The notes beneath the pieces were generated by a model that had not been told where the DNA came from, did no database searches, and saw nothing but the letters and a program-made list of their open reading frames with translations. From Deltaproteobacteria bacterium (GTDB taxonomy: Bacteria; Myxococcota_A; JAADFL01), in contig JAADFL010000066.1 in the NCBI GenBank assembly GCA_013152945.1, positions 8,324 through 72,323 on the forward strand: a DNA stretch of 64,000 nt. The letters run 5' to 3'. The position numbers and the translations under genes are program-made. Positions 17,284 to 55,924 of this stretch are shown one piece after another (the stretch's first letter is position 1; each line of letters starts with the position of its first letter).

Positions 17284-17289
17284 ATGCCT

Positions 17290-18387: not shown

Positions 18388-21300
18388 ATGTATCGGATGG
18401 AAGACGTATCACTATCTGTTGCAGCAAGTTACAAGCGCATGCTTGTAAACCTCGATAAGATCAGGCAGAGGCTTGTGGCCGGTCTTGCCGTAACGATTCT
18501 TTCAGACCTGGCGCTGGTTGTATCGGTTTTTGCAATCACCGGCACATTGTTGCACCTGGCCTATAATTTGAATCCTCCCGCGCCTGTGCGGGCGATTCTC
18601 TCTTTTGCCATGGCCTTGTGTTTATTGATCGTATTCGTGTTCGGCCTGAGAAAGGGCTTGGGCAAGAGGCCGGACATGCGGACCGCGGCTGAAGTTGTGG
18701 CGCGAAAGGTCCCGCAGATCGACTCGGACTGCCTTTCCAGCATTGAACTGTTCAGGCAGGACCCGGCGAACCTTTCAGACGATACCAGGATATTCGTAAA
18801 CATGCTGTTCCAGAGGACGGCCCGGGCCTCGGATGAGCTGGATCCCGGGGCACTGGTGCCCTTCGACAAGGTCCGCTTGCATGCAGGTGCGGCGGTCGTT
18901 GCATTATCTTTGTACATCGGCCTTGCATTGCTGTTGAATGTGAACCAGGCATCCATGTGGCATTCCGTCCTGTACCCGTTCAAGGCTGTTGCCGAATCCG
19001 GCCCCGTCGATTTTCAGGGCATGCTTGGGGACATGGAGGCAAGACTGGATTATCCTGATTATACCGGCCTTCCCTCGCGAATCCTAAAGGGCACGGATGG
19101 CAACCTCGTAGTTCCCGTTGGTACGAGAGTGACGCTTTCGGCCCGGACGGCAATTCCATTGAAAAAGGCCGGGCTGATTCTTCCCGGAGGCGACAAGCGG
19201 GCAATATCGATCGACGGTTCGAAACGAGGGCTCAAGGTGTCTTTCGTGGCCTTGAAGCAAGGTAATTACAAGGTGGCGGCCACATCCTACGATGGACGCA
19301 AGATGGTGGAGAGCAGGGGTCACAGGCTGTACCTGGTCCCGGATCGCGTGCCGAACGTGGAAATCCTGAAGCCGCTTTCAGGCAAGGAGGTGCAACAAGA
19401 CGACATGCTTCAGATAGATTTCAGGGCGGACGACGATTACGGCATTTCGCGGGTCGACCTGGTCATGCGGCGCCGGGGGGCTTCGGGGCCGGGCAAGGAA
19501 CAACGTCGCAAGCTGATGGAGTACGAACGCAGGCCCAGGGAGGTGCACAGGAGCCTGGAGTTCGACCTGGCCAAGGTCGAGCTTGAACCCGGAGATGACA
19601 TAGTGTTCTACCTGGAGGTGTTCGACAGTGATTCAGTCAATGGTCCCAAGAGTGGAAGGTCGAACAGCATCGTATTGAAGGTGTACTCTCCAAGAAACCG
19701 GCATGAGCAATACATTACAGACCAGGAAGAATTAAGGGAATTGGCGCTGAAGCTCCTGGCCGGCGTGCTGGAACAGGAACAGGGAATACACGGCAAAAAT
19801 AGGCTGGAAGACCCGACAGGTCCTGCCAGGCTGGTGCAGAGCATTAATGTGCTCACAGACAGGATGGCCCAGGTTATTAGAGATTCTGCAAAGGATCCGC
19901 TCAAGGACGATACCGCCATACAGGTAATAAGGAGGTTTGCAGCCAGGCTGAAAAACAAGGCGACCCTGGGTGCAGCGCTGGCCACGCGCTCGGCGAAATC
20001 GAAGACCCTGGCAGCGGATTACTTCAGGTTTCTTCTTTCCCTCGATCCGGTGGTGGAGAAGGGAATAATCGACATGACGGATTCACTGGACAGGCAGAGG
20101 TACGACCAGGCCCTTGCCTCGGCCGAGGACCTGCGCCATGCAGAGGCGAAGTTGAAGGAATTGTTGAAGCAATACATGGAGAACAAAGATCCTGCGGTAA
20201 AGGCCAGGTTGCGCGCCGAAATAGAAAAGTTGAAGAGGAGGTTGGCGCAGGTCTTGTCTCAACTGGCCAGGACCACCCACCAGGTGGCGGATGAATTCCT
20301 TAACCCGGACGCATTGGAATCCAGGGACATGCTGTCCTTGCTCGGTAAGCTGGACAAAGCATTGAACCAGGGTGACGAGCAGGGCGCGCGCCGGGCCATG
20401 GACGATTTCGAAAGAGAGCTGGAAAACACCCTGGCAATGTTGGAGGCAGGGTCGGCAACTTTGGCTGATGCCAAGTTCAAAGATGCATTTGACAAGATGG
20501 AAGAGATATCTTCCGAATTGGCTGAACTGGAGGGAGGCGAGAGGGAGGTCTCACAAAGACTTGACGACCTTGTCGAGTCGTATAGGAAGAAGGCGTTGCC
20601 CAAGGGACAAGATGCTTGGAAGAAAGAAATGGCAAGGCTCGCTAAGATGGCCGGGAACCTGGTGGAAAAAATCGAAAAATTAGGTTCCCGGGCCGGCGAT
20701 ATCGGTGCATATCCCCTCTATAGTGCGAGGGAAAGGGCCTCGTTGCTGCATACACAAATACGTGTGGGCCAGGTGGTGGATGCCATAAAGACCGCCAGGG
20801 ATACGATGGAGGATATCGAGTTGTTCAGGGAGGCCCTTGGGCAAAAGGGAATGCTGGGGCTTAGGGCTCTTTCAGACACGAACTGGTCTGTGCTGGACAG
20901 GCAAAGCGGTGATGCAGCGGAATTGGCGGAAAAGATCCTTCGTGCACTTGAAAAACTCAAGCCTGCTCCGGCGTCCAAGGTCCTGTCTGCAAAAGAGAAG
21001 TCCATGGCGGGCGAATTAAAAAAAGGCCAGGTTTCGTACAAGAAACGGGCGACAAAATTGAGCAGCGAGATGATGAAGTTGATTTCCAGGCTTCCGGGTA
21101 TAGGCGAGGAACCCCTTGCCCAGCTTTCACAGGCAAGGTACGAGATGTCTTCGGCCCAACGTGAATTGGCTAAACTGGGGTTGAAAGACGCAAGGGACTC
21201 GGTGGAGAGGGTTGTCGACAGGTTGGCCCGGGCCAGGACGGCACTTCAGAATCTCAGGCAGTCCATGCAGATGGGGGTTGCCCGGTCCGGAGGCAGGGTG

Positions 21301-30767: not shown

Positions 30768-32258
30768 ATGGATGAAAATAATAACAAAAAAGTGCATGGC
30801 CGGAAAGACGGCCTGGTCGGAGTTCTTCGCACGAGATTGGCCGGAAACAGTTATTATGCCCCGGTGACGATACGGGATTTTTTCACGTTCGAAAGGGATC
30901 CGTCGAATCCGCATGACAGTAACGCCGTGATGGTCATGAAGAACGGTTCCCGGGTTGCAGGACACCTGCCCGCCAGGGTGGTGTCGTGGCTCTCCGAGTT
31001 GCTGGACAATGACGTGGTGAGACTGTCAGGTGGAAGGATCGACCGTGAATACAGCGAGTACAAGCATGCGCCGTACTTGTCCATCGACGTTATTGCCGGC
31101 GAATCGTGGGAAGACGTGTCAAGACCATTCGAAGGACCTGTAAACGAATTCGAGTCACTGCATAACCTGGTGTTGGCCGCGTACGACGGGGCGTCCAAAT
31201 CCCCTGGATTCTCCAGAGATCTATATCGCAGAATCAAGCACTTGAAACAGGGTGACCTGCTGCCGGGTACCATGTTGTTGCTCAAGCTCATTCCATCCAT
31301 GGAACGTGTGGCGTCTTGGGGCAAGCGTATGGGTGAGGTTCGTGCGGCTGCAGACAGGTTGGAGCAGGTGGCTGTGTCAGAGGCTGTTCATGCAGGCTGG
31401 TTCACGATTTTCCCTTTACATGGAGATGGCAGGAACCACGTGCCTTACGTGTTACTGTCCGATGCCGTGACATCGGGTGCGGCCTCGGTGCATGAAAAGG
31501 ACGGGCACGGCTTCGTGCCCGAGATCGTCCTGCACAACAACCTTGGCGTACCAATCCTTATCAACGAGGGAGAATTGCTGGTGGGAGCCAAGCAGGATCG
31601 GACTATAAATGTCACTATAATGGCTCCGGCCGAATCCGAATTCGTGGTGCCTGTAAGCTGTGTTGAGGCAGGCAGGTGGCACCACACGTCTGAAGGATTC
31701 TCGGCCGAGAGCGTTGCACCGAGAAAGGTAAGACACACGAAGCTGAAGTCGGTAATCCATTCCGTGATGGCAGGCGGCGCCGCGCGAAGTGACCAGGAAG
31801 GAGTGTGGGAGAGCGTGTCCAGCCTTCTGAATGAAGCAGACACCCGGTCCCGAACCTCGTGCGTGACCGATGCCATACGCCATGAAAGAGAGAATAACGA
31901 ACTTCTTGACCATAAGCCGGATTTGCCGGGAGATACGAGAGGGGTGGTCGTGACCCTTGGAGATAAGCTTCTTGGCATCGAACTCTTCGATTCTCCGGGA
32001 ACTTTCGGCAAGCTATGGAAGAGGATCTGGGAGTCGTACGTGGTCGGTACCCCGCCCAAACAGGAACAGGAAGCAAAGGGCCCCGAGCCCGATCCTGAAT
32101 TTGCAAAGAAACTGGTCCAAGAGATTACAACCAGGCTCGAGCCGTCTCCCGTGTCTCTCGGCGAGGGGGTCGAGGTAGTGGTGAAAACCGGGGACATGGT
32201 TGGATCCGGCGTGGTATACGATGGTGTGCTCTGTGCGCTTTCAGTGCTTTCAGGTTGA
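30768..32258 (+). CDS. HIRAN domain fused to an ARPP-1-like domain
   Basis: A 496-residue protein. Residues about 17-85 fit HIRAN: LRTRLAGNSYYAP, then FERDPSNPHDSNAVMVMKNG and RVAGHLPARVVSWL; HIRAN binds DNA 3' ends in HLTF-type helicases and occurs alone in bacteria. From about 200 to 400 the pattern matches the ARPP-1/DUF6569 group (YVLLSDAVTSGAASVHEKDG, ILINEGELLVGAKQDRT, VPVSCVEAGRWHHTS). ARPP-1 proteins have been linked by others to ADP-ribose/NAD biology, without a settled activity. No helicase or nuclease domain is present. The ATG has CGGAGGAAG upstream. It is monocistronic between repeat-bearing spacers. Confidence 0.75.
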   Translation: MDENNNKKVHGRKDGLVGVLRTRLAGNSYYAPVTIRDFFTFERDPSNPHDSNAVMVMKNGSRVAGHLPARVVSWLSELLDNDVVRLSGGRIDREYSEYKHAPYLSIDVIAGESWEDVSRPFEGPVNEFESLHNLVLAAYDGASKSPGFSRDLYRRIKHLKQGDLLPGTMLLLKLIPSMERVASWGKRMGEVRAAADRLEQVAVSEAVHAGWFTIFPLHGDGRNHVPYVLLSDAVTSGAASVHEKDGHGFVPEIVLHNNLGVPILINEGELLVGAKQDRTINVTIMAPAESEFVVPVSCVEAGRWHHTSEGFSAESVAPRKVRHTKLKSVIHSVMAGGAARSDQEGVWESVSSLLNEADTRSRTSCVTDAIRHERENNELLDHKPDLPGDTRGVVVTLGDKLLGIELFDSPGTFGKLWKRIWESYVVGTPPKQEQEAKGPEPDPEFAKKLVQEITTRLEPSPVSLGEGVEVVVKTGDMVGSGVVYDGVLCALSVLSG

Positions 32259-39387: not shown

Positions 39388-40141
39388 GAGGATCTTCCTT
39401 CTTTTTTCGTTTGGCCGACTTCTTCTTCTACCCAATCTCTGTTACCCCGTAGTAATTCAACCCATTTGGCTTTTTACTATAGAGTTGTAACCGGGGCTTG
39501 TCAAAAAAACAATTAACGAATAACCCCTGATTACGCACGTCCATTGATTAATTTAACCACAATATCTAAGGTGTTTTGTAAATTGTGTTTAATCCAGCGA
39601 CTTGACATCAATCGCGATGAAAAATTGCCGGATCTTCTCTTCGACAAGTCCTTGAGTGCTTGGTTTTCCCAAGGCCGGATATGGCTGTTATGTCAATAAG
39701 ATATAAGGAGTGAAAAATCGGGATCATGCACGATATTAGTGTCCGGCGTAACGGTCGGGGTTTTTGGGGCCGCTTTAGGTGGAAAGCTGACCTGGTCCAG
39801 TAAAACAAAATACAAATTGTTTGGCTTGAGCATGGTATGGGTTGCCAGTTTTTGCGCGTCAATGAATTTTTTGCTGATGTGAAACTTCATGAAATGACAT
39901 CAAGTTTTTGATGCCCTGAAAATCAACCTGGGTGGGGGGACCTGGGGGGACCTGCGGTTGGGTGAGGGACCTGTGCGGTTATCTTCGGGGCTGTCAATTC
40001 CCTATTTTGAACCGGGCTTGCTATTTTTTTTGTATTGAACTTGTATCAATGGAACCAATATGCAAGTTCATACGTCTATTGGGCGATGAGGACATGGTTG
40101 ACTTTGAAAAAAACATGCCCCGGCATGGAAAGGGGTCTTCA
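39388..40141. other. Long spacer with dispersed repeats
   Basis: About 750 bp with no credible gene. 39388-39650 is AT-rich with no recognised feature. 39677-39700 (GGATATGGCTGTTATGTCAA) is similar to 63876-63899. 39778-39935 is repeat copy B, followed by G-rich tandem (GGGGGGACCT) units to about 39975. 40000-40141 precedes the macroglobulin gene. Confidence 0.6.
39778..39935 (-). repeat. Dispersed repeat, copy B (inverted relative to 11918-12053)
   Basis: Its minus strand matches copy A in two ungapped blocks: 39882-39935 (44 of 54) and 39778-39818 (35 of 41). The intervening part is 63 bp here and 41 bp in copy A. Its CTGGTCCAGTAAAA also resembles 29528-29542. Likely a MITE- or REP-type non-coding element. 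Confidence 0.7.
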
Positions 40142-43100
40142 ATGAGAAGGGAAAGGGCGTTGAAAAAACTGAAAGTGTTTGGTTATACCCTTGTTTTTTT
40201 TATTGTATGGTCTGCAAGCAGCGGATGTTTACCCGGAGAACACAAAGGGGCTGATGCACGGCCTGAAAGGAGTGCCGACATGCCGGGAGCCGGGAAAGGA
40301 GATCCCAAAATAAAGAAAATAAAGCCTCTTCCTGTCGCGGACTGGAACCAAGGCCTCTCCAAAGACTGGGCTGAAGTGAAAAAGCTGGAAGACGAGCAAA
40401 AACTGCAAGCCGCACAAAAGGTCATATTAAGCATACTGGACCGCGCCCGGGCCGAAAAGAACAGCGAGGAGTGGGTAAAGGCATTGATAACAGCAGTCCA
40501 GCTCAAGAGCGCTTTGCACGAGTACGAGACAGCGGTTCGTTTTTTCAAGGAGCAGCCCTGGCCCGATGACCTGCTCGGACAGGTCACCTGCAATCTCTAC
40601 TATGCGCAAATGCTCGTGTGGTACGCCCGAAACTACAGGTGGGAAATACAAAGGCGCGAGCGGGTCGATACCAAGGGCAAGGTCGATCTCAAGGCATGGA
40701 CATTGGAGCAGATATTTGCCGAGGCTGGAAGGGCCTACCTTTTCCTGTGGAGGCATAAGCAAGAGCTGGCAAACCTCGATGCCAGGAAGCTGGCGGCATA
40801 CATCGAGGTGGGCGATTACCCGCACGAGGTCAGACCCGGCTTGCTCGATGTGCTCACGTACTTTTGGACGAACCTCCTGGCCGATCGTGACGGCTGGCGG
40901 CCAAGGCAACGAAACGAGGTGTTTGCCCTGGACCTGGGAAAGTTGCTCGGTACTGCAAGGCCCATGTCCGCCCGCTTCAAACTCGATGATCCGAACATCC
41001 ACCCGCTTGTAAAGCTTTCCGCTCTCCTGGCCGACCTGGAGTACGAGCACTCGAAAAAAGGACTAAGGGAGGCGGCCCTGGAGGCATATATCGAGCGATC
41101 GAGACAGTTATGGAATGCATTCAGCCAGGAGCAGGACAAAACAGAGATAGAGAAAAAAATGGCGGCAAGGCTCGCCCACGAGCGTGGCATATCCTGGTGG
41201 TCGGTAGGCATTGCGCAAATGGCGCAGTGGGTACGCCAAAAACGGGATCCCCATGCACTTGTACAGGCTCATGAGCTGGCACAAAAAGGGTGGAAGAAAT
41301 ACCCGGACAGTATTGGCGGAAAGCAGTGCAGGAGTATAGTCGAGTCAATCGAACAACCGGGATATGCACTCCAGGGAATGGCAACCGATGCGCCCGGCAA
41401 GAAGTCGATCCTGGTGCGGCACAAGAATCTCAAAGAGATATTCTTCCGCGCCTACAAGCTTGACTTGTTGAAAATTGTCCGCAAGGCCGACGATTACGAC
41501 ATATTCCCACGATGGGAAGAGATCAGAAAAATAATGAAGAGAGAACCGGCTGCGTCATGGCGCAAGGCATTACCGAAAACCCCTGACTTCAGGATGCACA
41601 AGACCTTTGTGACTCCCCCCATGAAGAAACCCGGGTATTACCTGGTTATAGCCTCTGCAAAAAAGGACTTTGGGCCTGACGACAACTACATGACAGCCTT
41701 GAACGTGATAATATCCGACTTGGTCCTTGTCGAAGAAATCCATGACTCCGGCGTAGAGGTAACCGCCGTGTCCGGCGCAACCGGGCGGCCCGTCCCTGGT
41801 GTAAAGATATCCTTGTACAAGTATGATTGGACCGAAGGCCATCACGTCGTTCAAACAAAGACAACATCCGGGAACGGCGTTGTTGGTTTCACGAGCTATG
41901 GGGGCGACTATTTTCTCCTGGCCCGCAAAGGCGAACAGATTGTAATGGATCCGAATTACCTTAACATATACGCCAACAGATTTCCGGAGAGTCACACGGG
42001 GTCGCTCGTGTACACGGACCGAAGCGTGTACAGGCCCGGGCAGAAGCTGCATTTCAAAATCGTGGTATACTCGGGCCGCCGAAAAAAGGCGGATTACCAT
42101 ACTATTGCAGGCCGAAGGGTGAGGGTGTGGCTCGAGGACGCCAATCGCAGGACCGTGGCGGACGCGACTTACCACACCAATGAAAACGGCACTGTCTCAG
42201 GGTCGTTCGATATTCCGCCGGGTCGACTTTTGGGCCAATGGCACCTGTACACCTCTCCCGAAGGATCGGCCCCGGTCAGGGTCGAGGAGTACAAGCGGCC
42301 CACATTCGAGGTAAAGATAGACGATCCCAAGACTCCCTTGAGGCTGAACAAGCCGGCTGTACTCGAGGGCCGGGCCGATTACTACTTCGGCCTGCCTGTT
42401 ACAAGCGGCAAGGTGCTGTGGCGGGTAGTACGGAGTCCCCGTTACCCATGGTGGTGGTCCTGGTGGTACGGCAACAGGGGAAGCGCTTCCCAGGTCGTGG
42501 CCACAGGCACGGCAAAGCTTGCCGGTGAGGGCAAATTCAAGGTTTCCTTTACTCCAAAGGCGGATGAACGCACTGCAAAGGCAGGTGTTACTTATGTGTA
42601 CGAACTGGAAGCCGATGTGACGGACGAAGGAGGTGAGACCAGGTCCGCCAAGAGGTCCTTCAGGCTTGGTTTCGTGGCGGTCGAGGCAACAATAGGAATG
42701 GATGAAGAATTCGTGTTCGAGAACAAGCCGTCAATGGTGAAACTGACGCGCACAAACCTGGACGGAGTCGCGGCCCCGGGAACGGGCAAATGGCGGCTGT
42801 TGAAGATAGTTCAACCGGGACAGACCCTGGCCCCTGCAGACCAGCCCTTGCCTGAAGCTTTGCCGGGTGTGCAGGGAACCAAGGGTTATCAGACCGCCGG
42901 GGACCGGCAAAGAGCCAGGTGGCAACCGGGATACAATCCCATGGAAATTATGCGGCAATGGAAAGACGGGTCCCGTGTCGCTGGGGGCGAGGTTGTACAC
43001 GACAAGCAGGGAAGGGCGAAGATAAAAATGCCGCCCCTGCCTGCAGGGGCCTATCGGCTTCGCTATGAAACAAAAGATGCCTTTGGCAAGGTGTTCAGCA

Positions 43101-46100
43101 CGTCACGGGACATAATCGTTGCGGCCCGGAACGTCGACATCCGTCTACCCTTGCTTTTCAGAGTCGAAAAACCAACCGTGCACGTCGGTGAAACCGCCCG
43201 CATACTGGTGCATTCCGGCTTTAAGGACCAGTTGCTTTTCCTCGAGACGTTCCGGGATGGAAAACGCCAGAGCTGCAAGAGGATTGTTGCCGGGGAAGAT
43301 CCTGCGATCGTGGAGATACCGGTTACGGAGGATTTGCGCGGAGGTTTGGGACTGGTCTTGTGGGCCGTGCGGGATCACCAGTTCATGCAAATTACACGGA
43401 CCCTGTTTGTTCCATGGGACAACCACGAACTCAAGGTTTCCTTCTCAAGGTTCAGGGACAAGTTGAAGCCGGGTCAAAAAGAAACCTGGACCGTGAAGGT
43501 TGAAGGCCCGGACGGCTCGAAATCGGCTGTAAAGGGAGCCGAGGTTCTGGCCTACATGTACGACCGCAGCCTTGACATGTTCGCTTCGCACAACCCGCCG
43601 TCACCCATATCGATATTTCCGACCAGATACGACATTGCGTACACACGACCGAGCCTCTATGCAGCGAGAGCCAGTTGGCTTTCGTGTTCCGGGTTCAAAA
43701 ATCCCGCAGGATATCCGGATCTGCGGCCGGCCTCCTTGAAGTTCATCTCCGGTTATGGAATCGGCGGCATGGGCTATGGCGGCGGAGGGGGAGTACTGGC
43801 ACTGAGAGCGGCACCGGGAAGGAAGAGCGTTGCCATGCCCACCAGAGGCAGGAAAAGAAGAGCAATGAAGATGAAGACAATGGATAAAGAAATGGAGGAT
43901 GCTTTAAGTGAACAGGATAGAAGCGGCGTGGCCGGACTTGGAGAGGTGACGGTTGCGGGTGCACTGGAAAAACCTGCCGAAAACAAACTCGAGTCCGGTG
44001 GGGAAGCTCCGCAAAGGCCGCAACCCGTGATACCCAGGACCGACTTTTCGGAAACAGCCTTCTTCCTGCCGGAGTTGCTCACATCCGGTGACGGGTCGGT
44101 CAGTTTCACCTTCAAGGTGCCCGAGTCCGTAACATCATGGAATGTTTGGGCCCATGCCATCACAAGGGATTTATCCAGCGGTTCGAAAAAGGAGGAAGCC
44201 CGCACGATAAAGGATCTCATGGTCAGGCCGTATTTACCTCGCTTCCTGCGGGAGGGCGATATTGCCGACTTGAAGGTGGTGGTGAACAACGCTTCAGACA
44301 AGTCCATGCAGGGTGAGCTGGAATTCGATATTCAGGATCCGAAGACAAAGCAGAGCATGATCGACAAGTTCGGCTTGTCAAAAGAAAAGACAAAGCGTCG
44401 TTTCACTGTAAAGGCAAAGGGCGGCACCAGCCTGGTATTTAAAATCCGGGTGCCTGCGAAGCTGGGCCTGGTGGCTGTCCAGGCGATTGCAAGGTCGGGC
44501 GACATTTCCGATGGTGAAAGACGGGCCTTGCCGGTTCTTCCCGGGAGGATGCATCTCATACAGTCCAGGTTCGTGACACTGGACGGCAAGTCGAGGCGCA
44601 CGTTGCATTTCGCCGACATGGAAAAGAACGATGATCCGACCAGGATAGACGAGCAACTCGTAGTAACCCTGGATGCGCAGCTTTTCTATTCCGTGCTTGC
44701 CGCTGTGCCGTACCTGGTCAAGTATCCGTACGAGTGCAGTGAACAACTCCTGAACCGCTTCTTGTCCGCCGGAATACTTGCATCCATGTACAAGGACTAC
44801 CCGGCGGTGGCGAAGATGGCAAAGAAGCTCTCGGTGAGGAAGACCAGGCTGGAGCGCTTCGATCAACCCGATCCGAACAGGAAGATGGCTCTCGAGGAAA
44901 CCCCGTGGCTGGTGCAGGCCGGGGGTGGAGATAATGGATACGAAAAAGAAAACGGACTTGTGAACGTGCTCGATCCAAGGCTTGCCGAGTCACACAAGAG
45001 GGTGGCACTGGGCAAGCTCAAGAAGGCCCAGACTTTGTCCGGGGGCTTCCCCTGGTTCCCGGGCGGACCACCCAGCCCGTACATAACCTTGTACTTGCTC
45101 TACGGGTTTTCAAAGGGACTGGAGTTCGGCGTGCAAGTGCCAAGGGACATGGTACAGCGGGCCTGGCAGTACGAGAAGCGCCACTATATCGATCGAATGG
45201 TGCCCGACTGCATGAGCCTGGATGCCTGCTGGGAGGAGATTACTTTTTTGAACTACGTAATATCGAGCTACAAGGATGAAACCTGGACCGGCGGGGTGTT
45301 CAGCGGGAAGGACAGGAAAACCATGTTGGACTTTTCCTTCAAACACTGGAAGCAGCATTCTCCGTTGCTCAAGGCCTACCTCGCCCTGACCCTGAACCGT
45401 ATGGGCAGGCACAAGGATGCACGACTCGTGTGGGATAGTGTCATGGACTCTGCAAAGACAGATCCGGACCTGGGAACCTACTGGGCGCCCGAGGATCGAT
45501 CATGGCTCTGGTACAATGACACCATCGAGACACATGCATTTGCATTGCGGACGGAATTGGAACTCGCTCCCAACGACAAGAGGATTAAAGGCCTGGTCCA
45601 GTGGCTGCTGTTGAACAAGAAGATGAATCACTGGAAGTCCACCAAGGCCACTGCCGAGGTCGTGTATTCCCTGGCCGAGTACATGAAGAAGACCAGGCAG
45701 CTCGAAGCAGGGCAGTCGGCCCGGATCGTGGTGGGTGACGTGCATAAGAACTTCGTGTTCAAACCTGACGAGTACACCGGAAAGTCAAACCACCTGGTAT
45801 TGTCGGGCAAGGAACTGGACCCGGAGAAATGCTCGACCATAGAGGCTGAAAACCATTCAAAGGGTATGATGTTCGTTTCCGCCACGTGGCATTTCTCTAC
45901 CGAGAGGTTGCCGGGGAGCGCCAAGGGGGACCTCTTGAAGGTGAAGCGTGAGTACTTCCGAAGGGTGAAGACGGGCAGCCAGACGGTTCTCAAGCCGCTC
46001 GTGGACGGGGAACCTATAGAAGTGGGCGATGAGATCGAGGTGCACATCTCTCTTACATCGGGACATCCCGTAGGTTACGTGCACCTCCGGGACCCCAGGC

Positions 46101-46360
46101 CTGCAGGTTGCGAACCCGTGTCGTTCCGCTCCAGGTATAGGTGGGAACTGGGAATCTACTGGTACGAAGAGGTGCGGGACAGCGGAATGAACTTTTTCTT
46201 CGAGCAGTTGCCCCAAGGTGAATACCCGCTGATCCACCGTATGCGGGCGGCGGTTGCAGGTACTTTCAAGGTGGCCCCGGCAATCGTCCAGCCCATGTAT
46301 GCTCCGGAGTTCGCGGCGTATTCGGCCGGCAATGTCGTTGAGATTCGGCCTTCCAGGTAA
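40142..46360 (+). CDS. Alpha-2-macroglobulin family lipoprotein with thioester
   Basis: A 2072-residue periplasmic protease trap. ATG 40142 (after AAAGGGG) opens a lipoprotein signal with lipobox SSGC at about residue 29; the frame is open further upstream but without a signal. Helical repeats (about 70-400) precede the macroglobulin domains, with MG2 hallmark YTDRSVYRPGQKLHFKI (near 620). A Gly-rich, then Lys/Arg/Met-rich bait-like region lies at about 1200-1270. The thioester motif CSEQ is intact (Cys1532, in KYPYECSEQLLNRF). A C-terminal receptor-like domain ends the protein. In bacteria it usually pairs with penicillin-binding protein PbpC; none is here. It probably defends the envelope against foreign proteases. 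Confidence 0.93.
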   Translation: MRRERALKKLKVFGYTLVFFIVWSASSGCLPGEHKGADARPERSADMPGAGKGDPKIKKIKPLPVADWNQGLSKDWAEVKKLEDEQKLQAAQKVILSILDRARAEKNSEEWVKALITAVQLKSALHEYETAVRFFKEQPWPDDLLGQVTCNLYYAQMLVWYARNYRWEIQRRERVDTKGKVDLKAWTLEQIFAEAGRAYLFLWRHKQELANLDARKLAAYIEVGDYPHEVRPGLLDVLTYFWTNLLADRDGWRPRQRNEVFALDLGKLLGTARPMSARFKLDDPNIHPLVKLSALLADLEYEHSKKGLREAALEAYIERSRQLWNAFSQEQDKTEIEKKMAARLAHERGISWWSVGIAQMAQWVRQKRDPHALVQAHELAQKGWKKYPDSIGGKQCRSIVESIEQPGYALQGMATDAPGKKSILVRHKNLKEIFFRAYKLDLLKIVRKADDYDIFPRWEEIRKIMKREPAASWRKALPKTPDFRMHKTFVTPPMKKPGYYLVIASAKKDFGPDDNYMTALNVIISDLVLVEEIHDSGVEVTAVSGATGRPVPGVKISLYKYDWTEGHHVVQTKTTSGNGVVGFTSYGGDYFLLARKGEQIVMDPNYLNIYANRFPESHTGSLVYTDRSVYRPGQKLHFKIVVYSGRRKKADYHTIAGRRVRVWLEDANRRTVADATYHTNENGTVSGSFDIPPGRLLGQWHLYTSPEGSAPVRVEEYKRPTFEVKIDDPKTPLRLNKPAVLEGRADYYFGLPVTSGKVLWRVVRSPRYPWWWSWWYGNRGSASQVVATGTAKLAGEGKFKVSFTPKADERTAKAGVTYVYELEADVTDEGGETRSAKRSFRLGFVAVEATIGMDEEFVFENKPSMVKLTRTNLDGVAAPGTGKWRLLKIVQPGQTLAPADQPLPEALPGVQGTKGYQTAGDRQRARWQPGYNPMEIMRQWKDGSRVAGGEVVHDKQGRAKIKMPPLPAGAYRLRYETKDAFGKVFSTSRDIIVAARNVDIRLPLLFRVEKPTVHVGETARILVHSGFKDQLLFLETFRDGKRQSCKRIVAGEDPAIVEIPVTEDLRGGLGLVLWAVRDHQFMQITRTLFVPWDNHELKVSFSRFRDKLKPGQKETWTVKVEGPDGSKSAVKGAEVLAYMYDRSLDMFASHNPPSPISIFPTRYDIAYTRPSLYAARASWLSCSGFKNPAGYPDLRPASLKFISGYGIGGMGYGGGGGVLALRAAPGRKSVAMPTRGRKRRAMKMKTMDKEMEDALSEQDRSGVAGLGEVTVAGALEKPAENKLESGGEAPQRPQPVIPRTDFSETAFFLPELLTSGDGSVSFTFKVPESVTSWNVWAHAITRDLSSGSKKEEARTIKDLMVRPYLPRFLREGDIADLKVVVNNASDKSMQGELEFDIQDPKTKQSMIDKFGLSKEKTKRRFTVKAKGGTSLVFKIRVPAKLGLVAVQAIARSGDISDGERRALPVLPGRMHLIQSRFVTLDGKSRRTLHFADMEKNDDPTRIDEQLVVTLDAQLFYSVLAAVPYLVKYPYECSEQLLNRFLSAGILASMYKDYPAVAKMAKKLSVRKTRLERFDQPDPNRKMALEETPWLVQAGGGDNGYEKENGLVNVLDPRLAESHKRVALGKLKKAQTLSGGFPWFPGGPPSPYITLYLLYGFSKGLEFGVQVPRDMVQRAWQYEKRHYIDRMVPDCMSLDACWEEITFLNYVISSYKDETWTGGVFSGKDRKTMLDFSFKHWKQHSPLLKAYLALTLNRMGRHKDARLVWDSVMDSAKTDPDLGTYWAPEDRSWLWYNDTIETHAFALRTELELAPNDKRIKGLVQWLLLNKKMNHWKSTKATAEVVYSLAEYMKKTRQLEAGQSARIVVGDVHKNFVFKPDEYTGKSNHLVLSGKELDPEKCSTIEAENHSKGMMFVSATWHFSTERLPGSAKGDLLKVKREYFRRVKTGSQTVLKPLVDGEPIEVGDEIEVHISLTSGHPVGYVHLRDPRPAGCEPVSFRSRYRWELGIYWYEEVRDSGMNFFFEQLPQGEYPLIHRMRAAVAGTFKVAPAIVQPMYAPEFAAYSAGNVVEIRPSR

Positions 46361-46595: not shown

Positions 46596-47060
46596 ATGAA
46601 AGAAAAAATGAGCGCGCTTTCGGAAACTTTTTTGTTCAAGGATGTGCCGGAGGAAAAACTTGAAGAAGTAGCCAAAATAGCAGAGGAGAAATTAGTAATC
46701 CCTGGTGATGTAATAATCCGCGAAGGGGATTTCGGTGACTCGATATACGTGGTGGTTTCGGGCTCGGTAAAGATCGAGAAGCGCGTCGAAGGCGAACTTA
46801 AGGAGATAGCCGAGCTTGGCCGGGGCGAGATATTCGGTGAGGTTTCCATGGTGGACGAGGAACCAAGGTTGGCTACTGTAAGACCGGTCGAGGCGACCAC
46901 GTTGCTCAAGATGAACATCGATGACCTTGAAATCCTCTTTGTCGATTATCCGGAATTGACCGCACCTGTCTTCAGGGCCCTTGCAAAAGTGCTTGCCGCA
47001 AGGTTACGTCAGACCACCAAGGACATGACATTCCTACGTTCAATGGCCGGTAAGAATTAG
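46596..47060 (+). CDS. Stand-alone cyclic nucleotide-binding domain protein
   Basis: A 154-residue cNMP-binding (CAP_ED) domain with no DNA-binding or enzyme domain. The beta-roll (IPGDVIIREGDFGDSIYVV) and phosphate-binding cassette FGEVSMVDEEPRLATV are clear, with the Glu and Arg that contact the cyclic nucleotide present. A final helix ARLRQTTKDMTFL resembles that of the PP2C fusion at 54677 (SSRLRQTNEELTIL), so both sensors come from one subfamily. ATG 46596 was chosen over TTG 46518 because GGAAGGG lies upstream and the domain starts here. Confidence 0.9.
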   Translation: MKEKMSALSETFLFKDVPEEKLEEVAKIAEEKLVIPGDVIIREGDFGDSIYVVVSGSVKIEKRVEGELKEIAELGRGEIFGEVSMVDEEPRLATVRPVEATTLLKMNIDDLEILFVDYPELTAPVFRALAKVLAARLRQTTKDMTFLRSMAGKN

Positions 47061-47240
47061 TGCTATATTTCAAAAATGAGTGGAGAAACATGATCGTCAC
47101 GTGATTTTTGAGAGTATAACAAGCTTGAAGCGCCGGGTAGCAAGGATTTTTCGGATACAAGCCTGCTGTTGTGATACGGAGCGCTTGAAGATTGAAGGTG
47201 TTATGACGTATTTTTGCCAGGTGTGCACTGAGGGAGCAAA

Positions 47241-50200
47241 GTGAAACCGGTTGAATTGGAACGCATGCTTCGTGAAACAGGCAGGTGGCCCGAGCTTGCC
47301 GAACTATATGAAAAAATGTCTTCCAGGGCGCCTGATCCGGCAAGAGGGGGACAGTTGTTGGAGCAGGCTGCCCGCTTGTTCGAGCAGAAAGTAGGAGATC
47401 CGGCAAAGGCTGAAAATTGTCGCGTGCGGGCCTTGAAATTGGATCCCACCAACAGGGACGCATTCCGGGCACTTGCAGCTAGATACGAGCAGAGGGAGGA
47501 ATTCAGGAAGCTGGCCGATCTATTTTCTCTCCAGGCTGCTGTTTCGACAGAGCCTATTACTCGATCCGAGTATTTTTTCAACCTGGCCAAGATTGAAGAG
47601 GAGAAGTTGGTCAGGTCGTTGAGGGCGCTCATCGAATACAGGAGGGCATGGAACGCGTACCCGGGAAACAGTGAAGCCCTGAATGCAGCCAAGTCACTGG
47701 CAGCCAGGTTGGGTCTCAACTCGTTGCTGGTGGACTTGTTGTATGAACAGCTCAAGCTTGACATACAGCGCAAGGATGCGGCGGGCGAATTGCTCGAATT
47801 GGCAACAGACCTGGAGGAAAGCGATCCCCTGGCAGGTGAATTGGCGGACAGGTGCAGGGAATTGGCTCTAGAGGCCGACCCGGACAGCGAGCAAGCCAGG
47901 CAGGCCATGGAAGATCAACACAAGCGAAAGCTGAAGGCCGGCAAGGGTTGGAAGAAGGTATTCAAGAAAGAACTTTCAGAAGCAAGGAGATCTCCTCCGC
48001 AAAAGGCAAGGAGGGCCGCGTACGCTGCGCTTCGCATGGCCGTCGCGAATGGGGACGAAGGCAGGAATGAGGCCCTGGAGGCTGCAAAGGAAATATTGAG
48101 AAGGAGCCCGGGTGACGAGGTAGCCCTGGAGACGGCAAGGCGCATGCTTTCACGGGAGGACTATGTTGTGCTGCTGTGGGACCAGCTCGGGGCCACCAAG
48201 AGAAGGAGCAGGAAGCTGGAATTGTGCTACGAGTTGCTTCCGCTGGTAAGAGCCGGGGACCAGGATACAAAGAGATACGAGGCGCTTTTGGAGCGGGGAT
48301 TGGAGATAGACAGGTCCGCGTTGCCGTGCAGGATACTCCTCAAGGAATTTTTTGAGGAAAAAGGTGATTTCGCCTCTATCACGAGATTGCTCGAAGAAGA
48401 GTTGTCCGAGATAGAAGACCCATCCAAGAAAGTCCATGCCCTGATGGAACTCGCCGGGCTCCAAGAGGAAAAAGTCCTGGATATTCCGGCGGCGGCCGCG
48501 TACTGGGAAAAGGTCCTGGATATTGATCCGGCGAACAGGGAAGCGGGAGACAGCCTGGTTCGGCTCATGCGGGAACAGGATGACAGGCAAGGGTTGGCTA
48601 AGGCCCTTGACATTGTTGCGGGACAAGTGGAGACGCCCAAGGAGAAACTTGCCGCCTTGAAAGAGGCTGCGTCTATAAAAGAGGAACTGCAGGAACCCGA
48701 GCTTGCCTTTGCAGCCTGGTGCAGGGCTTTCAGGGAGGATCCATCCGATATCGAGTGCATTCAGGGCATGGAGAGAAGTGCGGAGGCGGCCCGGGCCTTC
48801 GAGGAACTCGCGGCGGTATATCAGGAAGAGTTGAACAAGGTGGCGGTGGCCAGGTCGACGGCTTTCGCCTTGCGGGCCGCCGAGCTGTGGATGGAAAAAA
48901 TACAAGACAAGGCTTCGGCCATTGCTTGCTATCAACACGTGTTGCTCGCCGATCCCGCCAAGTTTGCAGGGGCGAGATTGAAGGCGTGCGATGCCCTGGA
49001 AATATTGCACGAGGAAGATGGTGATTACCGGTCTGCATTGGAAGTGCTGGAAAAGGCACTGGAGATACCTGTACAGGAAAAAGGACTTTCCCTGTCCGAT
49101 AAACGCAGGCTCCTGGTCAAGGTAGGGCGGGCAAAGAGGCGGCTTGGCGACCTTGCCGGCTCGGATGCTGCCTTGAGATCGGCATTGGATATTGACGGGC
49201 AGGACAAGGATGCATTGAGAGAGCTGGCGCTGACACTGGAGGAGGCGGGAGATTTACCCGGACTTTCCGGTATACTGGATAAGCTTGTTTCCATGTCCGA
49301 CGGTGATGATAAGACGATTGCCCTTTGTATGTCCGCCAGGGTCAAAGTGAATAAGACCGGAGATCTTTTCGGTGGCTTCGATGACATTGCAGAGGCAATG
49401 AATATTTCGCCGGGACATCCCTGTATTATTGAGTCCCTGAAAAAGTTTCGTGAAAAGGGTGGAGAGGCCGGCGGACGCGCGTTTGAATTGATGGCAAAGA
49501 TTTACGAAGAGACGAAAGAGTGGAGGAAATTGGCCGACCTTCTCGAGGAAGAGTTGGGGAGCGCCGATGGCGTGGATAAGAGGCTCCCCCTGCTCTCGAG
49601 GATCGGTGATCTACAGGAGAAGTGGCTTGACCAGCCGGAGATGGCCTTCATCACCTGGTGCAGGGCTCTTCGTGAAGCGCCGCAAAGCGAATCCACGTAC
49701 AATGCATTGTTCAGATTGGCTGAAACTGTAGACCAGGGTTTCAACGAGATAGTCGCGTTGTGCGAAGAGATTGCGGATACGGAAAAAGATAGTTCATCAG
49801 CCGGACTGGCGGCATTGAAGGCTGCGGAAGTGTACGAAAAACAACTGGAAAAACCTGAAGAGGCAAAGGGACTTTACAAGAAGGCATTCAAGCTGACGGG
49901 TGGGATGGATGACGATCTGGCCGAGGCGGCCCTGGATTCGTTGGAGCGATTGGCCTCGAAGGCAGGCGACGACAGGGAGTTGGCAAGAGCTCTTGCATTC
50001 AGGATCCAGTTCAATGTTGGGGTAGCGGATGACCTTGAACGGGCGTTGCTTCTGAAGCGGTTGGGTTTTTTAAGGGCCGAAAAGCTGGCCGATCCGGAAG
50101 GCGCAATAGGGCCTCTTGAGGAATCGCTGTTACTGAACCCGGAAGATGTAGAGACATCCCGTTTTCTTACAAAGGTATTCGAGGAGACCGGTTCCTTTGA

Positions 50201-53200
50201 AAAGTTGGCCGGTTTGCTGGAACAGTCTCTGGAAAAGACCGAAGAATTCGAATCCAGGAAGAGCCTGGCCCTCAAGTTGTTCGATGTGTTGTCCAACAGG
50301 CTCGATAGGAATAGTGAAGCTGCAGAGGTTTTGGCAAGGTTACTTGTCGAGCAGCCTGGAGACGGTGACCTGGTCGAGGCACTGGAACAAATTCAGGGTG
50401 ATGTGGAATCAAGGTTGACCGCAGGCAAGGCGCTTGCCCCTCATTATCGCGAGACCGGCCAGTGGAACAAGTTGGCTGAAGCCTTGGAAGCCATATTGGA
50501 TTCCGATCAGGGAGACCGCGGTGAAGTTTTTGCGGAACTTGCGGATATCTACCAGGAGAATCTTTCAAGACCCGACCTGGCTTTCCTGACTGCATGCAGG
50601 TGGCATGCAGATGTTCCCGGAGACGAGCAGGCAAAGAAAAGATTGGAGGGCCTGGCTGCGGTGACCGGCTCCTGGGAAGAGGCGGTCCGGGCACTGGAAG
50701 AGGAAATTGAGAAGGCTGTCGATCCGGTCAATGCGGCAAGAACCAGGCTTCGCGTTGCAGGGCTCCATCTCGAAAGATTGGAGAGACCGGACAGGGCGAT
50801 AGATCATCTAAAGGCAGTGCTCGACGATCCCAATCCTGATGTTGTCCCCATCAAGGTTAGGGCCGCGGATATGCTGGCGGACTTGTACAGGTCCCAGTCT
50901 GCATGGGCGGATCTGGCCGATATCCTCGAAAATAGGCTCGGTTGGCTCGAGCGCCGGAGCGACAAGGCCGAGGCTCTCCGTGAGCTGGCGGAAGTCTACA
51001 AGGACAAGTTGGATGATCCGGAACGCGCCTTTAGTGCTGCATGCCGCAGTGTGAGACAGGATCCGGGCTCGCGTGCGACTCTTGCCGTGGCCGAGGAACT
51101 CGCAGATTCCAGGGGTTACTTGGATGAAATGGCGGCCCTGTATGAAGACCTGGCCGAAGAGGCGGAAATACCGACCTTGTCGGCATCATACTATTTCAGA
51201 CTCGGTGAATTGCTTGAAAACAAGTTGAAAAAAAAGGAGAAGGCAAGAGCAGCGTATCGTAATGCCCTGGAAATAAGGCCCGATGACCTGGATGCCTTGA
51301 AAAATCTCGAAGCATTGGCTGAAAGGGCTGGGGACTTTGAGGAAGCTGTGGATCTCCTGAAACGCCAGGCTGCGATTTTGGAAGAGGAGGCAGGTATAAA
51401 GGTCAGGCTCAAGCTGGCAAAGATGCTCGAGCAGGAATTAGGGGAAGTCGAAGGCGCTTATGAACAGTACAAGCATGTGGTGAGGGCCGATCCGAAATGC
51501 CTGGAAGCCCTGGAGGCCCTCGAATCCATTCTGGAGAAGAAGGGCGCCAAGCCTTCGGCCAGGCTGGGTGTTATGCAGCTTATGTTGAGGGCGTTGCACG
51601 AAAGTGAACATGCACCGATCCTGAAACGCATGGCCCGAATCGCCATGAAAGACCTGGATAGGCCCAGAGATGCTTTGAAATATCTCAAAAGGGCAAAGGA
51701 ACTATCTCCCGACGATGGCGAAATTCAGGATTTGTTTATTGAAACATACGAAGCCATGGGTGATACCAAGGCCCTGGTGAAGCTCTATGGCAGCCAGGCG
51801 ATGGCATCTGTGGGCGAGGAGAGGGTGCAGTGGTTGCGAAAGGCTGCCGCCTTGCTTGAAAAGGGTGAAGGCTTGGACAGGGATTCGGCCAAGCGGGCAT
51901 GGCAGGCGGTGCTTTCAGCCGAGCCCGAGGATCCTACGGCCCTTCAGGCCATGCTCAATTACCACAAAGAAGATGAGAAGTGGGACCTCGTGGTGGACGT
52001 ACTTAAAAAGTTGATCCCGCTTCAACACGATCCGAACATGGCCAGGGGCCTTTTCCTGGATTTGGCATCGGTACTGGCGGAGAAACTGGGTAATCTGGGG
52101 GATGCGGTCGAAGCCGCGACCAAGGCCATGGAATTGGTACCGCTGGAACTCGATGACCTGGAAAAGGCTGAAAAGGTCCTGGTTCATTGTAGTGCCTGGC
52201 CCGAGTATGCGGAGTTGTTGGCCAACCGTGCCGAGCTGGTGCCCACTCCCGAAGAAGCAGCCGAAGTACACAAGACCAGAGGACGGTTGATATTGAACAG
52301 GCTTCACAATCCCGCCGGGGCCGCCGATGCTTTCCGCCGGGCTTTGGAATTGGTACCGGGCGATGAAGAAGCCAGGTCGGCGGTGCAGGAACTGTACGAG
52401 ACTACCGGAGAGTGGGAGTCGCTGGCCGACATGGTCCAGGCCGAGCTCCTGGCCAGGCCTCCCAGACGCAGGCGAAACGAGCTTTTGAGGGAGTTGAGTG
52501 ACATATACGAAAACCGAATGGATGCCAGAGAACAGGCATTGAGGGTTTACTTCAGGGCTTTCAGGGAGGACCCTTCGGACGAGGAGGTTCAACAGGAACT
52601 GGAAAGAATTGCAAGGGATGCAGGCAAACTTGATGCCATGGTCCAGATATACAAGGATACGGCCGAGGCTCTGGGCGACCGTGGACTAGCGGCGAAAATG
52701 TTCGTAAAGATGGCTACCATACTGGAGAAGGAACTCGACAGGGCTGATGAGGCTGCGGACAGCTACAGGATGGTATTGGCGCTCGAACCGGCAAGGACAG
52801 AGGCAAGGGAAGCGTTGATTCGGCTTTTGTCCAGGCAGGGAAGGTTCGATGAACTTGCCGGGGCATTGAGGGCCCAGGCTGAGGCGGAACCGGACCCGAA
52901 TCAACGGGTTCAGTTGTTACGTCAGGCTGCAGCGGTATACGAGGAAAAGCTTTCCGATTCCAAGGAGGCATCTTCTTGCCTTGCGCTCGCTGCTGATGCG
53001 GATCCAAGGAACAAGGATGTAATCGAAGACTTGGTACGTGTTCTCGGCGACCAGGAACGTTGGGACCAGGCGGTCAGCGTGTTGGAAAAGACTGCGGCCG
53101 CCCAGGTAAACCAGCGCGAGGCAAAGGCATTGAAGCTCCGGATAGCCGACTTGCTGGATAAGAAGATGGGCGATTTCGAGGGTGCTATTTCAATATACAG

Positions 53201-54680
53201 AGATTTCCTGAAGGAGAGTCCCAACGATAACGAGGTATTGGACTCGCTGGCCAGGATTTATACAAAGACAGGTAAATGGGAAGATCTCCTGGAGGTTTTT
53301 GCGCGCAGGGCAGGCGCGACTCAAGATGCGAAGAAGAGAGCCGCCCTTTACAGGCAGATGGCTTCGATAGCGGATGAGGAATTCGGAGATGCCGCCAGGG
53401 CTGCGCGGTACCTGAAGAGAGCATTGGAACTGGAGCCGGATGATCCTTCTTCGCTGGCCTCCCTTGAAGCTGCATTGAGAAGGGCTGAAGAATGGGACGA
53501 ACTCGTCGAAGTGTTGAAGAAGCGAAGGGACATGGAAGACGATCCATCGACCGCGGCGGCCTTGTGCTTTGATAGAGGCGAGGCGCTCGAAAACAAGTTG
53601 TTTGAAATCGACGATGCTGCGGAATGCTACCGCGAGGCATTGGAATTGGATCCGGCATTCACTCCGGCTTCAGCCGCGCTGGCCGGGATCTACCAGAGTA
53701 TGAAAGACTGGCAGAGCTGCCTCGATGTATTGGAACTGCAGGTCGCTCAAATGGACGAAGGCAGGGAAGCGGCTGACTTGTTCCTGAGGATGGGGAAAAT
53801 ATGCCAGGAGCAGCTCGATGACTCGGCCAGGGCCAGGGAACACTATCAGAAGGCATTGGAACTGGATTCTTCGAATACTGATGCGGTAGTGGCGTTAAAG
53901 GGCCTTTCCATGTCTCTCAATGATTGGCCTGCATACCTGTCTTTGTTGTCCAGGGAGGCGGACCTGGCAGTGGAACCGGATAGAAAAGCGGCTTTGTACA
54001 CGGAAATGGGAAACATTTGGTACAAGCAATTGAAAGACAGCAGCCAGGCGATTGGTTACTATGAAAGTGCATTAAACGCGGTTTCAGGCTTCCCTGAAGC
54101 TGCATTGCCCCTGGGCTCGATCATGTTCGACCAAGGCAGGTGGGATTATGCAGAGGAGTTGCTTTCGTCGGTGGTGGCCAGGAGTTACCGGGGCGGAGAG
54201 GAGGCGGCTCCGAACGAATTGATATACAAATTGGGATTTGCCGCAGAGAAGCAGGGCAAGGAAAAGATAGCCTTTCAAAGGTACAAGGAAGCCTATGAGT
54301 TGGACGCGGTTCATTTGCCGACACTGGAGGGCTTGGCTAGGCTGGCCCAAAAGAGGAGGGAAGATGAACTTGCATTGAAGGCGCTCAAGACTATATTGTT
54401 CCACCACAGGAACCAGAAGGAACCGTCAGAGATCCTGGACATATACTGCAGGCTGGGAGAATTGCACATTGAAAGGGGTGAAGAGGACCAGGCATCCAGG
54501 ATGTTTGAAAAGGCGCTGGTAGTGGACGGTAATTGTATTATAGCCTTGAACAGGATGGCCGAAATCTTGGAAAATCGCGGCGACAAAGGAAGGTCACAGG
54601 CGTTCAGACTTAGACTCAAGGCTGCCAAGAGGAAAAAGGAAAGTCAGTCAGAGGGAGGTTCGAAGGGAGGTTCAAAATGA
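47241..54680 (+). CDS. Giant TPR-repeat protein (2479 residues)
   Basis: An all-helical cytoplasmic-looking protein with no signal peptide. It is built of repeating modules of about 72 residues of the form W..L..LLE..L......A..L..LA.....L.D...A...Y..AL..DP....A (e.g. EKVLDIPAAAAYWEKVLDID), giving roughly thirty copies. Such arrays serve as scaffolds. No enzyme domain is visible. The C-terminus is a short charged tail (SQSEGGSKGGSK). GTG 47241 has GAGGGAG upstream. The TGA overlaps the ATG of the PP2C gene. It lies between two cyclic-nucleotide sensors, suggesting a signalling platform. Internal repeats make recombination or assembly errors possible, though the frame is intact. Confidence 0.88.
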   Translation: MKPVELERMLRETGRWPELAELYEKMSSRAPDPARGGQLLEQAARLFEQKVGDPAKAENCRVRALKLDPTNRDAFRALAARYEQREEFRKLADLFSLQAAVSTEPITRSEYFFNLAKIEEEKLVRSLRALIEYRRAWNAYPGNSEALNAAKSLAARLGLNSLLVDLLYEQLKLDIQRKDAAGELLELATDLEESDPLAGELADRCRELALEADPDSEQARQAMEDQHKRKLKAGKGWKKVFKKELSEARRSPPQKARRAAYAALRMAVANGDEGRNEALEAAKEILRRSPGDEVALETARRMLSREDYVVLLWDQLGATKRRSRKLELCYELLPLVRAGDQDTKRYEALLERGLEIDRSALPCRILLKEFFEEKGDFASITRLLEEELSEIEDPSKKVHALMELAGLQEEKVLDIPAAAAYWEKVLDIDPANREAGDSLVRLMREQDDRQGLAKALDIVAGQVETPKEKLAALKEAASIKEELQEPELAFAAWCRAFREDPSDIECIQGMERSAEAARAFEELAAVYQEELNKVAVARSTAFALRAAELWMEKIQDKASAIACYQHVLLADPAKFAGARLKACDALEILHEEDGDYRSALEVLEKALEIPVQEKGLSLSDKRRLLVKVGRAKRRLGDLAGSDAALRSALDIDGQDKDALRELALTLEEAGDLPGLSGILDKLVSMSDGDDKTIALCMSARVKVNKTGDLFGGFDDIAEAMNISPGHPCIIESLKKFREKGGEAGGRAFELMAKIYEETKEWRKLADLLEEELGSADGVDKRLPLLSRIGDLQEKWLDQPEMAFITWCRALREAPQSESTYNALFRLAETVDQGFNEIVALCEEIADTEKDSSSAGLAALKAAEVYEKQLEKPEEAKGLYKKAFKLTGGMDDDLAEAALDSLERLASKAGDDRELARALAFRIQFNVGVADDLERALLLKRLGFLRAEKLADPEGAIGPLEESLLLNPEDVETSRFLTKVFEETGSFEKLAGLLEQSLEKTEEFESRKSLALKLFDVLSNRLDRNSEAAEVLARLLVEQPGDGDLVEALEQIQGDVESRLTAGKALAPHYRETGQWNKLAEALEAILDSDQGDRGEVFAELADIYQENLSRPDLAFLTACRWHADVPGDEQAKKRLEGLAAVTGSWEEAVRALEEEIEKAVDPVNAARTRLRVAGLHLERLERPDRAIDHLKAVLDDPNPDVVPIKVRAADMLADLYRSQSAWADLADILENRLGWLERRSDKAEALRELAEVYKDKLDDPERAFSAACRSVRQDPGSRATLAVAEELADSRGYLDEMAALYEDLAEEAEIPTLSASYYFRLGELLENKLKKKEKARAAYRNALEIRPDDLDALKNLEALAERAGDFEEAVDLLKRQAAILEEEAGIKVRLKLAKMLEQELGEVEGAYEQYKHVVRADPKCLEALEALESILEKKGAKPSARLGVMQLMLRALHESEHAPILKRMARIAMKDLDRPRDALKYLKRAKELSPDDGEIQDLFIETYEAMGDTKALVKLYGSQAMASVGEERVQWLRKAAALLEKGEGLDRDSAKRAWQAVLSAEPEDPTALQAMLNYHKEDEKWDLVVDVLKKLIPLQHDPNMARGLFLDLASVLAEKLGNLGDAVEAATKAMELVPLELDDLEKAEKVLVHCSAWPEYAELLANRAELVPTPEEAAEVHKTRGRLILNRLHNPAGAADAFRRALELVPGDEEARSAVQELYETTGEWESLADMVQAELLARPPRRRRNELLRELSDIYENRMDAREQALRVYFRAFREDPSDEEVQQELERIARDAGKLDAMVQIYKDTAEALGDRGLAAKMFVKMATILEKELDRADEAADSYRMVLALEPARTEAREALIRLLSRQGRFDELAGALRAQAEAEPDPNQRVQLLRQAAAVYEEKLSDSKEASSCLALAADADPRNKDVIEDLVRVLGDQERWDQAVSVLEKTAAAQVNQREAKALKLRIADLLDKKMGDFEGAISIYRDFLKESPNDNEVLDSLARIYTKTGKWEDLLEVFARRAGATQDAKKRAALYRQMASIADEEFGDAARAARYLKRALELEPDDPSSLASLEAALRRAEEWDELVEVLKKRRDMEDDPSTAAALCFDRGEALENKLFEIDDAAECYREALELDPAFTPASAALAGIYQSMKDWQSCLDVLELQVAQMDEGREAADLFLRMGKICQEQLDDSARAREHYQKALELDSSNTDAVVALKGLSMSLNDWPAYLSLLSREADLAVEPDRKAALYTEMGNIWYKQLKDSSQAIGYYESALNAVSGFPEAALPLGSIMFDQGRWDYAEELLSSVVARSYRGGEEAAPNELIYKLGFAAEKQGKEKIAFQRYKEAYELDAVHLPTLEGLARLAQKRREDELALKALKTILFHHRNQKEPSEILDIYCRLGELHIERGEEDQASRMFEKALVVDGNCIIALNRMAEILENRGDKGRSQAFRLRLKAAKRKKESQSEGGSKGGSK

Positions 54681-55924
54681 ATGCGATTCGTTCCTGGGGA
54701 CTTACAGATGTAGGTAAACGCAGGGATCACAATGAGGACAGTTTTTTCGTAGACGAAGATTTGAAACTCTATGTGGTTGCGGATGGTATGGGCGGACATG
54801 CAGCCGGTGAGGTTGCGAGCCGGATGGCTCAGGAGCATATTCACAAAAAAGTGAAAGAGGGGAAGGAAGCAATTGACAGGCTGGCACAGGAGGACTCTCC
54901 CATCAACAGGGAAGCCGTTTTAAAGTTACTCGAGGCCGGAGTGCAGGACGGGTGCAAGGCGATTCATGACCTGTCTGAAAAGGAGCCAGAGAGAAAGGGT
55001 ATGGGCACTACCACGGTATGCTTATTGCTGGTAGGCGAGCATGGCTTTTTTGCACATGTCGGTGATTCGAGGCTCTACCTCATTAGGGGTGGGAACGAGT
55101 ACCAGTTGACCACGGATCATTCTCTTGTAAACGAGCAGATCAGGCAGGGTAAGCTGGATCCGGCCAAGGCCGACAAGGTTCCCTATGCGAATGTAATTAC
55201 CAGGGCCGTTGGCGTGTACGAGTCCGTGGAAGTTGATACCCAACGATTTGAAGTCGCACCTGGTGACCGGTTCCTGTTATGCAGTGACGGCTTGCATGGT
55301 TACTTGAGACCGGGCGAGGCGGCCAAGATTGTGCTCGAGAAGGGCGCGGAGGCAAGTAAGACTTTTATCGACATGGCGAATGACAGGGGAGGCAAGGACA
55401 ATATTACGGCCATAGTCGTCGAGGTCGGCGAAAAGCCGCCCGAGATGCCTACAGAGACTACTCTGAAGATAGAGGTATTGAGGCATGCCCCACTGTTCAA
55501 GCACCTGGATTACCAGGAATTGGTCAAGGTCTTGAACATTACCATACTCGATACCTACAAGGAGGACGAGGTCCTGATAGAGGAGGGCCAGAGCGGCGAC
55601 GAGTTCTACGTGATATTGAACGGGCAGGTCGAGGTGAGCAAGGAGGGAGTGACATTAACACATCTGTCCGATGGCGACCATGTCGGTGAATTGGCCTTGA
55701 TAGAAAGGGTCCCGAGGACAGCGACGGTCAAGGCTGTCATGGACACCAAGGTGCTGGCCATACACAGGGCGGATTTCTATGACTTAATTCGCAAAGAACC
55801 TATATTGGCCGTAAAGCTGCTTTGGATTTTCCTGAAGGAATTATCATCGAGGTTGAGGCAAACCAATGAAGAGTTGACCATTCTTCTGACCGGTGATCTC
55901 GATGAGGGCAAGCCAAAAGAATAG
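54677..55924 (+). CDS. PP2C phosphatase fused to a cyclic nucleotide-binding domain
   Basis: A 415-residue protein. Residues 1-250 are a PP2C (PPM) Ser/Thr phosphatase: RDHNEDSF, ADGMGGHAAGEVAS, FFAHVGDSRLYL, LCSDGLHGYL and GGKDNITAIVV, so the metal-binding aspartates are present. A linker (about 250-270) leads to a CAP_ED domain (about 275-395) with VGELALIERVPRTATV, including the ligand Glu and Arg. The phosphatase is thus probably gated by cAMP or cGMP. It is coupled to the giant TPR gene by an ATGA overlap. The opposing kinase is not in the window. Confidence 0.94.
   Translation: MNAIRSWGLTDVGKRRDHNEDSFFVDEDLKLYVVADGMGGHAAGEVASRMAQEHIHKKVKEGKEAIDRLAQEDSPINREAVLKLLEAGVQDGCKAIHDLSEKEPERKGMGTTTVCLLLVGEHGFFAHVGDSRLYLIRGGNEYQLTTDHSLVNEQIRQGKLDPAKADKVPYANVITRAVGVYESVEVDTQRFEVAPGDRFLLCSDGLHGYLRPGEAAKIVLEKGAEASKTFIDMANDRGGKDNITAIVVEVGEKPPEMPTETTLKIEVLRHAPLFKHLDYQELVKVLNITILDTYKEDEVLIEEGQSGDEFYVILNGQVEVSKEGVTLTHLSDGDHVGELALIERVPRTATVKAVMDTKVLAIHRADFYDLIRKEPILAVKLLWIFLKELSSRLRQTNEELTILLTGDLDEGKPKE

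Follow-up and report, generated by a model that had tools for sequence, protein, structure and literature searches.

The stretch of DNA analysed here (64,000 nucleotides, the window) carries three open reading frames on the + strand at 46596-55924. Their coordinates and domains were confirmed by ORF translation and Pfam, which bore out the three-gene layout (cNMP protein, 2479-residue TPR protein and PP2C-cNMP fusion) described in an earlier note on this DNA. The first gene (46596..47060) encodes a stand-alone cyclic-nucleotide-binding (cNMP) domain protein of 154 aa (PF00027, E=2.7e-20), which keeps the pocket Glu and Arg in the motif FGEVSMVDEEPRLATV. The second gene (47241..54680) encodes a TPR protein of 2479 aa with no other domains, recognised by the Pfam TPR families and by a 72-residue spacing. 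The third gene (54677..55924) encodes a 415-aa fusion of a PP2C domain of the Stp1/IreP type (residues ~8-250) and a PKA/PKG-like cNMP-binding domain (~264-400). The TPR stop codon and the PP2C start codon share a 4-bp ATGA overlap (54677..54680, + strand), which is a sign of translational coupling. This overlap is preceded by a good ribosome-binding site of the GGGAGG type, and the proposal that the last two genes are coupled thus held. Co-translation suggests a physical or dosage link between the TPR protein and the PP2C-cNMP protein in this lineage. Between the stand-alone cNMP gene and the TPR gene there is a gap of 180 bp, in which no terminator-like site was found on the + strand; because of this gap, we only infer that the two genes belong to the same operon. 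Just upstream, on the same strand, lies a gene for a bacterial alpha-2-macroglobulin of ~2100 aa with a CSEQ thioester-type motif (39932-46360), and elsewhere in the window a HIRAN domain is fused to ARPP-1 (30768-32258).

Conservation of the fusion and of its gene neighbourhood

Beyond the window genome, 281 genomes of the phylum were compared, and fusions spanning both domains turned up in more than 100 of them, at ~38-53% identity; these orthologues occupy many different neighbourhoods. In the neighbourhood survey that had been named beforehand as the check on the trio, the trio was found in 0 of 80 neighbourhoods of the phylum, 69 of which had at least 8 kb upstream; a TPR protein of the window type upstream of the fusion orthologue was likewise found in 0/80. 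The earlier note had named lack of joint conservation of the trio as a refuting result, and on this count the scaffold proposal fails at the level of the phylum. The class is represented by one genome, since the window genome (a 4.84-Mb assembly, 94% complete) is its sole member among the compared genomes. The TPR repeat profile used for the neighbourhoods was sensitive, recovering giant TPR proteins of other loci with E down to 1e-202. Of the 80, one neighbourhood has a distant large TPR pair ~1.6 kb downstream of the fusion orthologue and another has a short TPR ORF at 5 kb on that side; in a third, a multi-cNMP protein lies 6 kb upstream. The large pair, at locus L222, consists of tandem TPR genes on the reverse strand (2915-7852 and 7849-14481; 1645 and 2210 aa, with a 4-bp overlap). 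This pair was rejected as an echo of the trio: it lies on the opposite side, its similarity is weak (E ~1e-10 with the repeat profile), and a rough estimate puts the number of such coincidences in 80 loci at about one.

It is quite possible that the gene order in the window is incidental. The phosphatase would then be of a general PP2C-cNMP kind, the TPR protein would be specific to the lineage and have a role of its own (in envelope or motility machinery, for example), and these two and the small cNMP protein would be neighbours by chance. The scatter of fusion orthologues over many neighbourhoods across the phylum agrees with this explanation, as does the presence of large TPR genes near 1 orthologue only, which is roughly the chance level; however, the ATGA overlap suggests that at least the last two genes are under selection to be translated together.

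Catalytic and ligand-binding residues of the fusion

Pfam detected both a PP2C_2 domain (E=9e-17) and a cNMP domain (PF00027, E=9.7e-21) in the fusion. In addition, the NCBIfam model NF033484 (Stp1/IreP PP2C) gave a score of 237.2 bits, above its 230-bit cut-off, and the fusion of one cNMP sensor to a PP2C phosphatase was thereby confirmed. The PP2C motifs NED, DGMGGH, GDSR, DG and GGKDN are present, and the cNMP pocket has the motif VGELALIERVPRTATV with its Gly-Glu and Arg. To these sequences we applied an alignment of 50 proteins, consisting of the window fusion and 49 orthologues or close paralogues that are 40-50% identical to it. The residues of the PP2C metal/phosphate site (E20, D21, D36, D130, D204 and D241) were invariant in 50/50 aligned sequences, and the pocket residues G337, E338 and R347 were kept in 50, 49 and 48 of the 50, respectively. 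The earlier statement that the ligand Glu and Arg and the phosphatase metal residues are all present was thus verified, with 48-50 of the 50 sequences keeping them. The closest solved structures to the cNMP domain were apicomplexan PKG and eukaryotic PKA regulatory subunits, and those to the catalytic domain were the bacterial PP2Cs 5iti and 2j82; a single-sequence structure prediction of the fusion had a mean pLDDT of 40.7 and was discarded. No match covering 80% of the fusion was found in plasmid records.

Cyclic-nucleotide binding is not universal among cNMP domains with an intact motif. The near-invariance of the pocket Glu and Arg nevertheless points to phosphate-ribose binding, and judged from these residues, cyclic-nucleotide gating of the PP2C-cNMP phosphatase is likely. 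It seems unlikely that the cNMP domain plays no part in gating the phosphatase and instead serves targeting or dimerisation, or binds some other ligand. The PP2C domain of Arabidopsis PP2C19 alone suffices for function, without its cNMP domains (PMC11775391, PMC11638329), and a fused cNMP domain therefore need not control the biological role; but in the 50 aligned sequences the pocket Glu and Arg stay nearly invariant while other positions vary. An anti-phage (Pycsar) reading was rejected: the cNMP domains match PycTIR models across the cNMP part only, and neither a TIR domain nor a Pycsar cyclase was found in the cNMP and fusion proteins.

The stand-alone cNMP protein and the giant TPR protein

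The closest solved relatives of the 154-aa protein are cNMP domains of the PKA/PKG type. The residue after the pocket Arg is Leu in this protein and Ser or Thr in the fusion orthologues. An Ala or a Thr at this position separates PKA from PKG, and the Leu makes the ligand of the 154-aa protein less certain. A tree that combined the cNMP domains of the genome with 12 orthologous fusions placed the fusion's own domain with its phylum orthologues (support 99/99) and gave no supported place to the 154-aa protein. The latter is 38% identical to a protein on contig C78 of the same genome, compared with 33% to the cNMP domain of the fusion, and when the fusion was searched against its own genome, five other cNMP places outscored the 154-aa protein. 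Judged by these comparisons, the two cNMP domains of the window are not each other's nearest relatives, and the description of them as two sensors of one subfamily has to be given up. On contig C78 (locus 1523-6513), ExbB/ExbD-like and GltG-like genes are followed by the small cNMP protein that is nearest to the 154-aa protein.

The 2479-aa protein matched TPR families with E down to 9.2e-32 and is built of ~34 units of 72 residues, each with two TPR motifs. When its first 800 residues were compared with 263 other genomes (E<=1e-25), no orthologue was found, and there was one partial, weak match of 27% identity. Distant TPR relatives of ~3300-4600 aa in the phylum sit beside GltG-like FHA-TonB genes of the gliding-motility type, and no cNMP or PP2C genes were present near them in the stretches read. 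GltG-like genes are also present in the window genome, in which a TPR protein on contig C25 occupies the GltI-like place next to them; no gltG/gltJ-type genes lie beside the window TPR gene. At locus L098, a gap of 60 bp separates a GltI-like giant TPR gene (6720-17198) from the gene for a Ser/Thr kinase that comes after it (17259-19229). GltI/AgmK of the Myxococcus gliding machinery (4132 aa), which shares a gene cluster with GltG, is like the window protein a giant TPR protein without a signal peptide (PMC3169522). In contrast, the window protein has 2479 aa, is 25-30% identical over parts and lacks Glt neighbours. It is probably cytoplasmic and probably an adaptor, the partners of which may include the PP2C-cNMP phosphatase, and its role in this sense is a guess.

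TPR repeats usually bind proteins, and with the adjacency of the three genes on one strand, the ATGA coupling of the last two and the 180-bp gap in which no terminator-like site was found on the + strand, this general property is what speaks for a dedicated module, in which the TPR protein would hold phosphoprotein clients along with the PP2C-cNMP phosphatase and would also bear, as a second sensor, the small cNMP protein. We consider such a module doubtful, however, in view of the absence of the trio from the 80 orthologue neighbourhoods, the lack of an orthologue of the TPR N-terminal part in 263 genomes, the separate placement of the two cNMP domains in the tree and the position of the phylum's giant TPR relatives beside gliding-motility-type genes instead. 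About as doubtful is its fullest form, a bacterial counterpart of the anchored PKA-phosphatase complexes of eukaryotes: in this class, translation of a giant TPR protein would be coupled to that of a cNMP-gated PP2C, which the TPR protein would anchor, and the second cNMP protein would sit on the scaffold too. Of the proposed cNMP-gated dephosphorylation of proteins on a scaffold, the gated PP2C is thus retained, with its conserved pocket and catalytic residues, and the scaffold with matched sensors, which derives from local gene order only, is not.

Candidate signalling partners and known systems

Taken together, the domain, residue and gene-order data suggest that the fusion is probably a Ser/Thr phosphatase of the Mxan4398 type that is gated by cAMP or cGMP and, in this lineage, coupled to a giant TPR gene. 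The metal-dependent phosphatase domain would oppose the Hanks-type kinases of the cell, and binding of cAMP or cGMP in the conserved C-terminal pocket would switch the phosphatase up or down. The fusion gene would be produced in translational coupling with the giant TPR gene, near a small separate cNMP gene. If the gating is true, cAMP/cGMP would be linked directly to bacterial Ser/Thr phosphorylation without transcription.

As the earlier note had supposed, candidates for the kinase and the cyclase are present elsewhere in the genome, which has 5 class III cyclases, 26-27 kinase domains and 21 cNMP domains; a separate scan of the genome contigs found only one distant cNMP domain. There are two PP2C_2 proteins, the second being a stand-alone relative (44%) on contig C121, so that the fusion is one of only two PP2C_2 enzymes amid 26-27 kinase domains. 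On contig C148, the gene for a protein with two cNMP domains precedes that for a Hanks-type kinase by 9 bp (locus 1568-3013 / 3023-4249). The two resemble a PKA split into its regulatory and catalytic parts; the pocket motif is intact in the first cNMP domain, and the Arg is replaced in the second. A single chain encoded on contig C210 (locus 1028-3382, - strand) has a Ser/Thr kinase at its N terminus and also a cyclase domain of class III, and on the - strand of contig C144 (locus 3915-4568 / 4685-7480) a CRP-like cNMP protein adjoins a membrane class III adenylate/guanylate cyclase.

The fusion is a member of a described myxobacterial family. A 2010 survey of myxobacterial phosphatases reported Mxan4398, sce2855 and sce6950 with a C-terminal cNMP domain, a combination with PP2C that was not then found outside Myxococcales, and it proposed, as a suggestion, regulation by cAMP or cGMP (PMC2887360). 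The earlier view that the design was not known as a described system is superseded for the phosphatase part, as both the fusion and the idea of its regulation were published in that survey. No test of this idea was found in the literature searched. The window fusion has the domain order, the PP2C residues and the Gly-Glu and Arg pocket of the Mxan4398 type. It is likened to the three proteins by domain order and shares the proposed regulation, and, to judge in part from the GltG-like genes of the window genome, they appear to belong to the same phylum; the accessible part of the survey (PMC2887360) mentions neither a TPR nor a small cNMP partner for them, and the window fusion has both as neighbours. 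What is new here is the phylum-wide conservation of the pocket in PP2C-cNMP fusions; the scaffold module is little supported.

Plant PKG and Arabidopsis PP2C19 are single chains with a PP2C domain, a pair of cNMP domains and a kinase, and the phosphatase of the rice PP2C-cNMP-kinase protein is inhibited by cGMP (PMC11775391, PMC11638329). By analogy, this would suggest inhibition as the direction for the window fusion, in which the cNMP domain also follows the PP2C domain. The window fusion differs from the plant proteins in having a single cNMP domain and in lacking a kinase. Its catalytic domain passes the family cut-off of the Stp1/IreP-type bacterial PP2Cs, from which it differs in carrying an extra cNMP domain.
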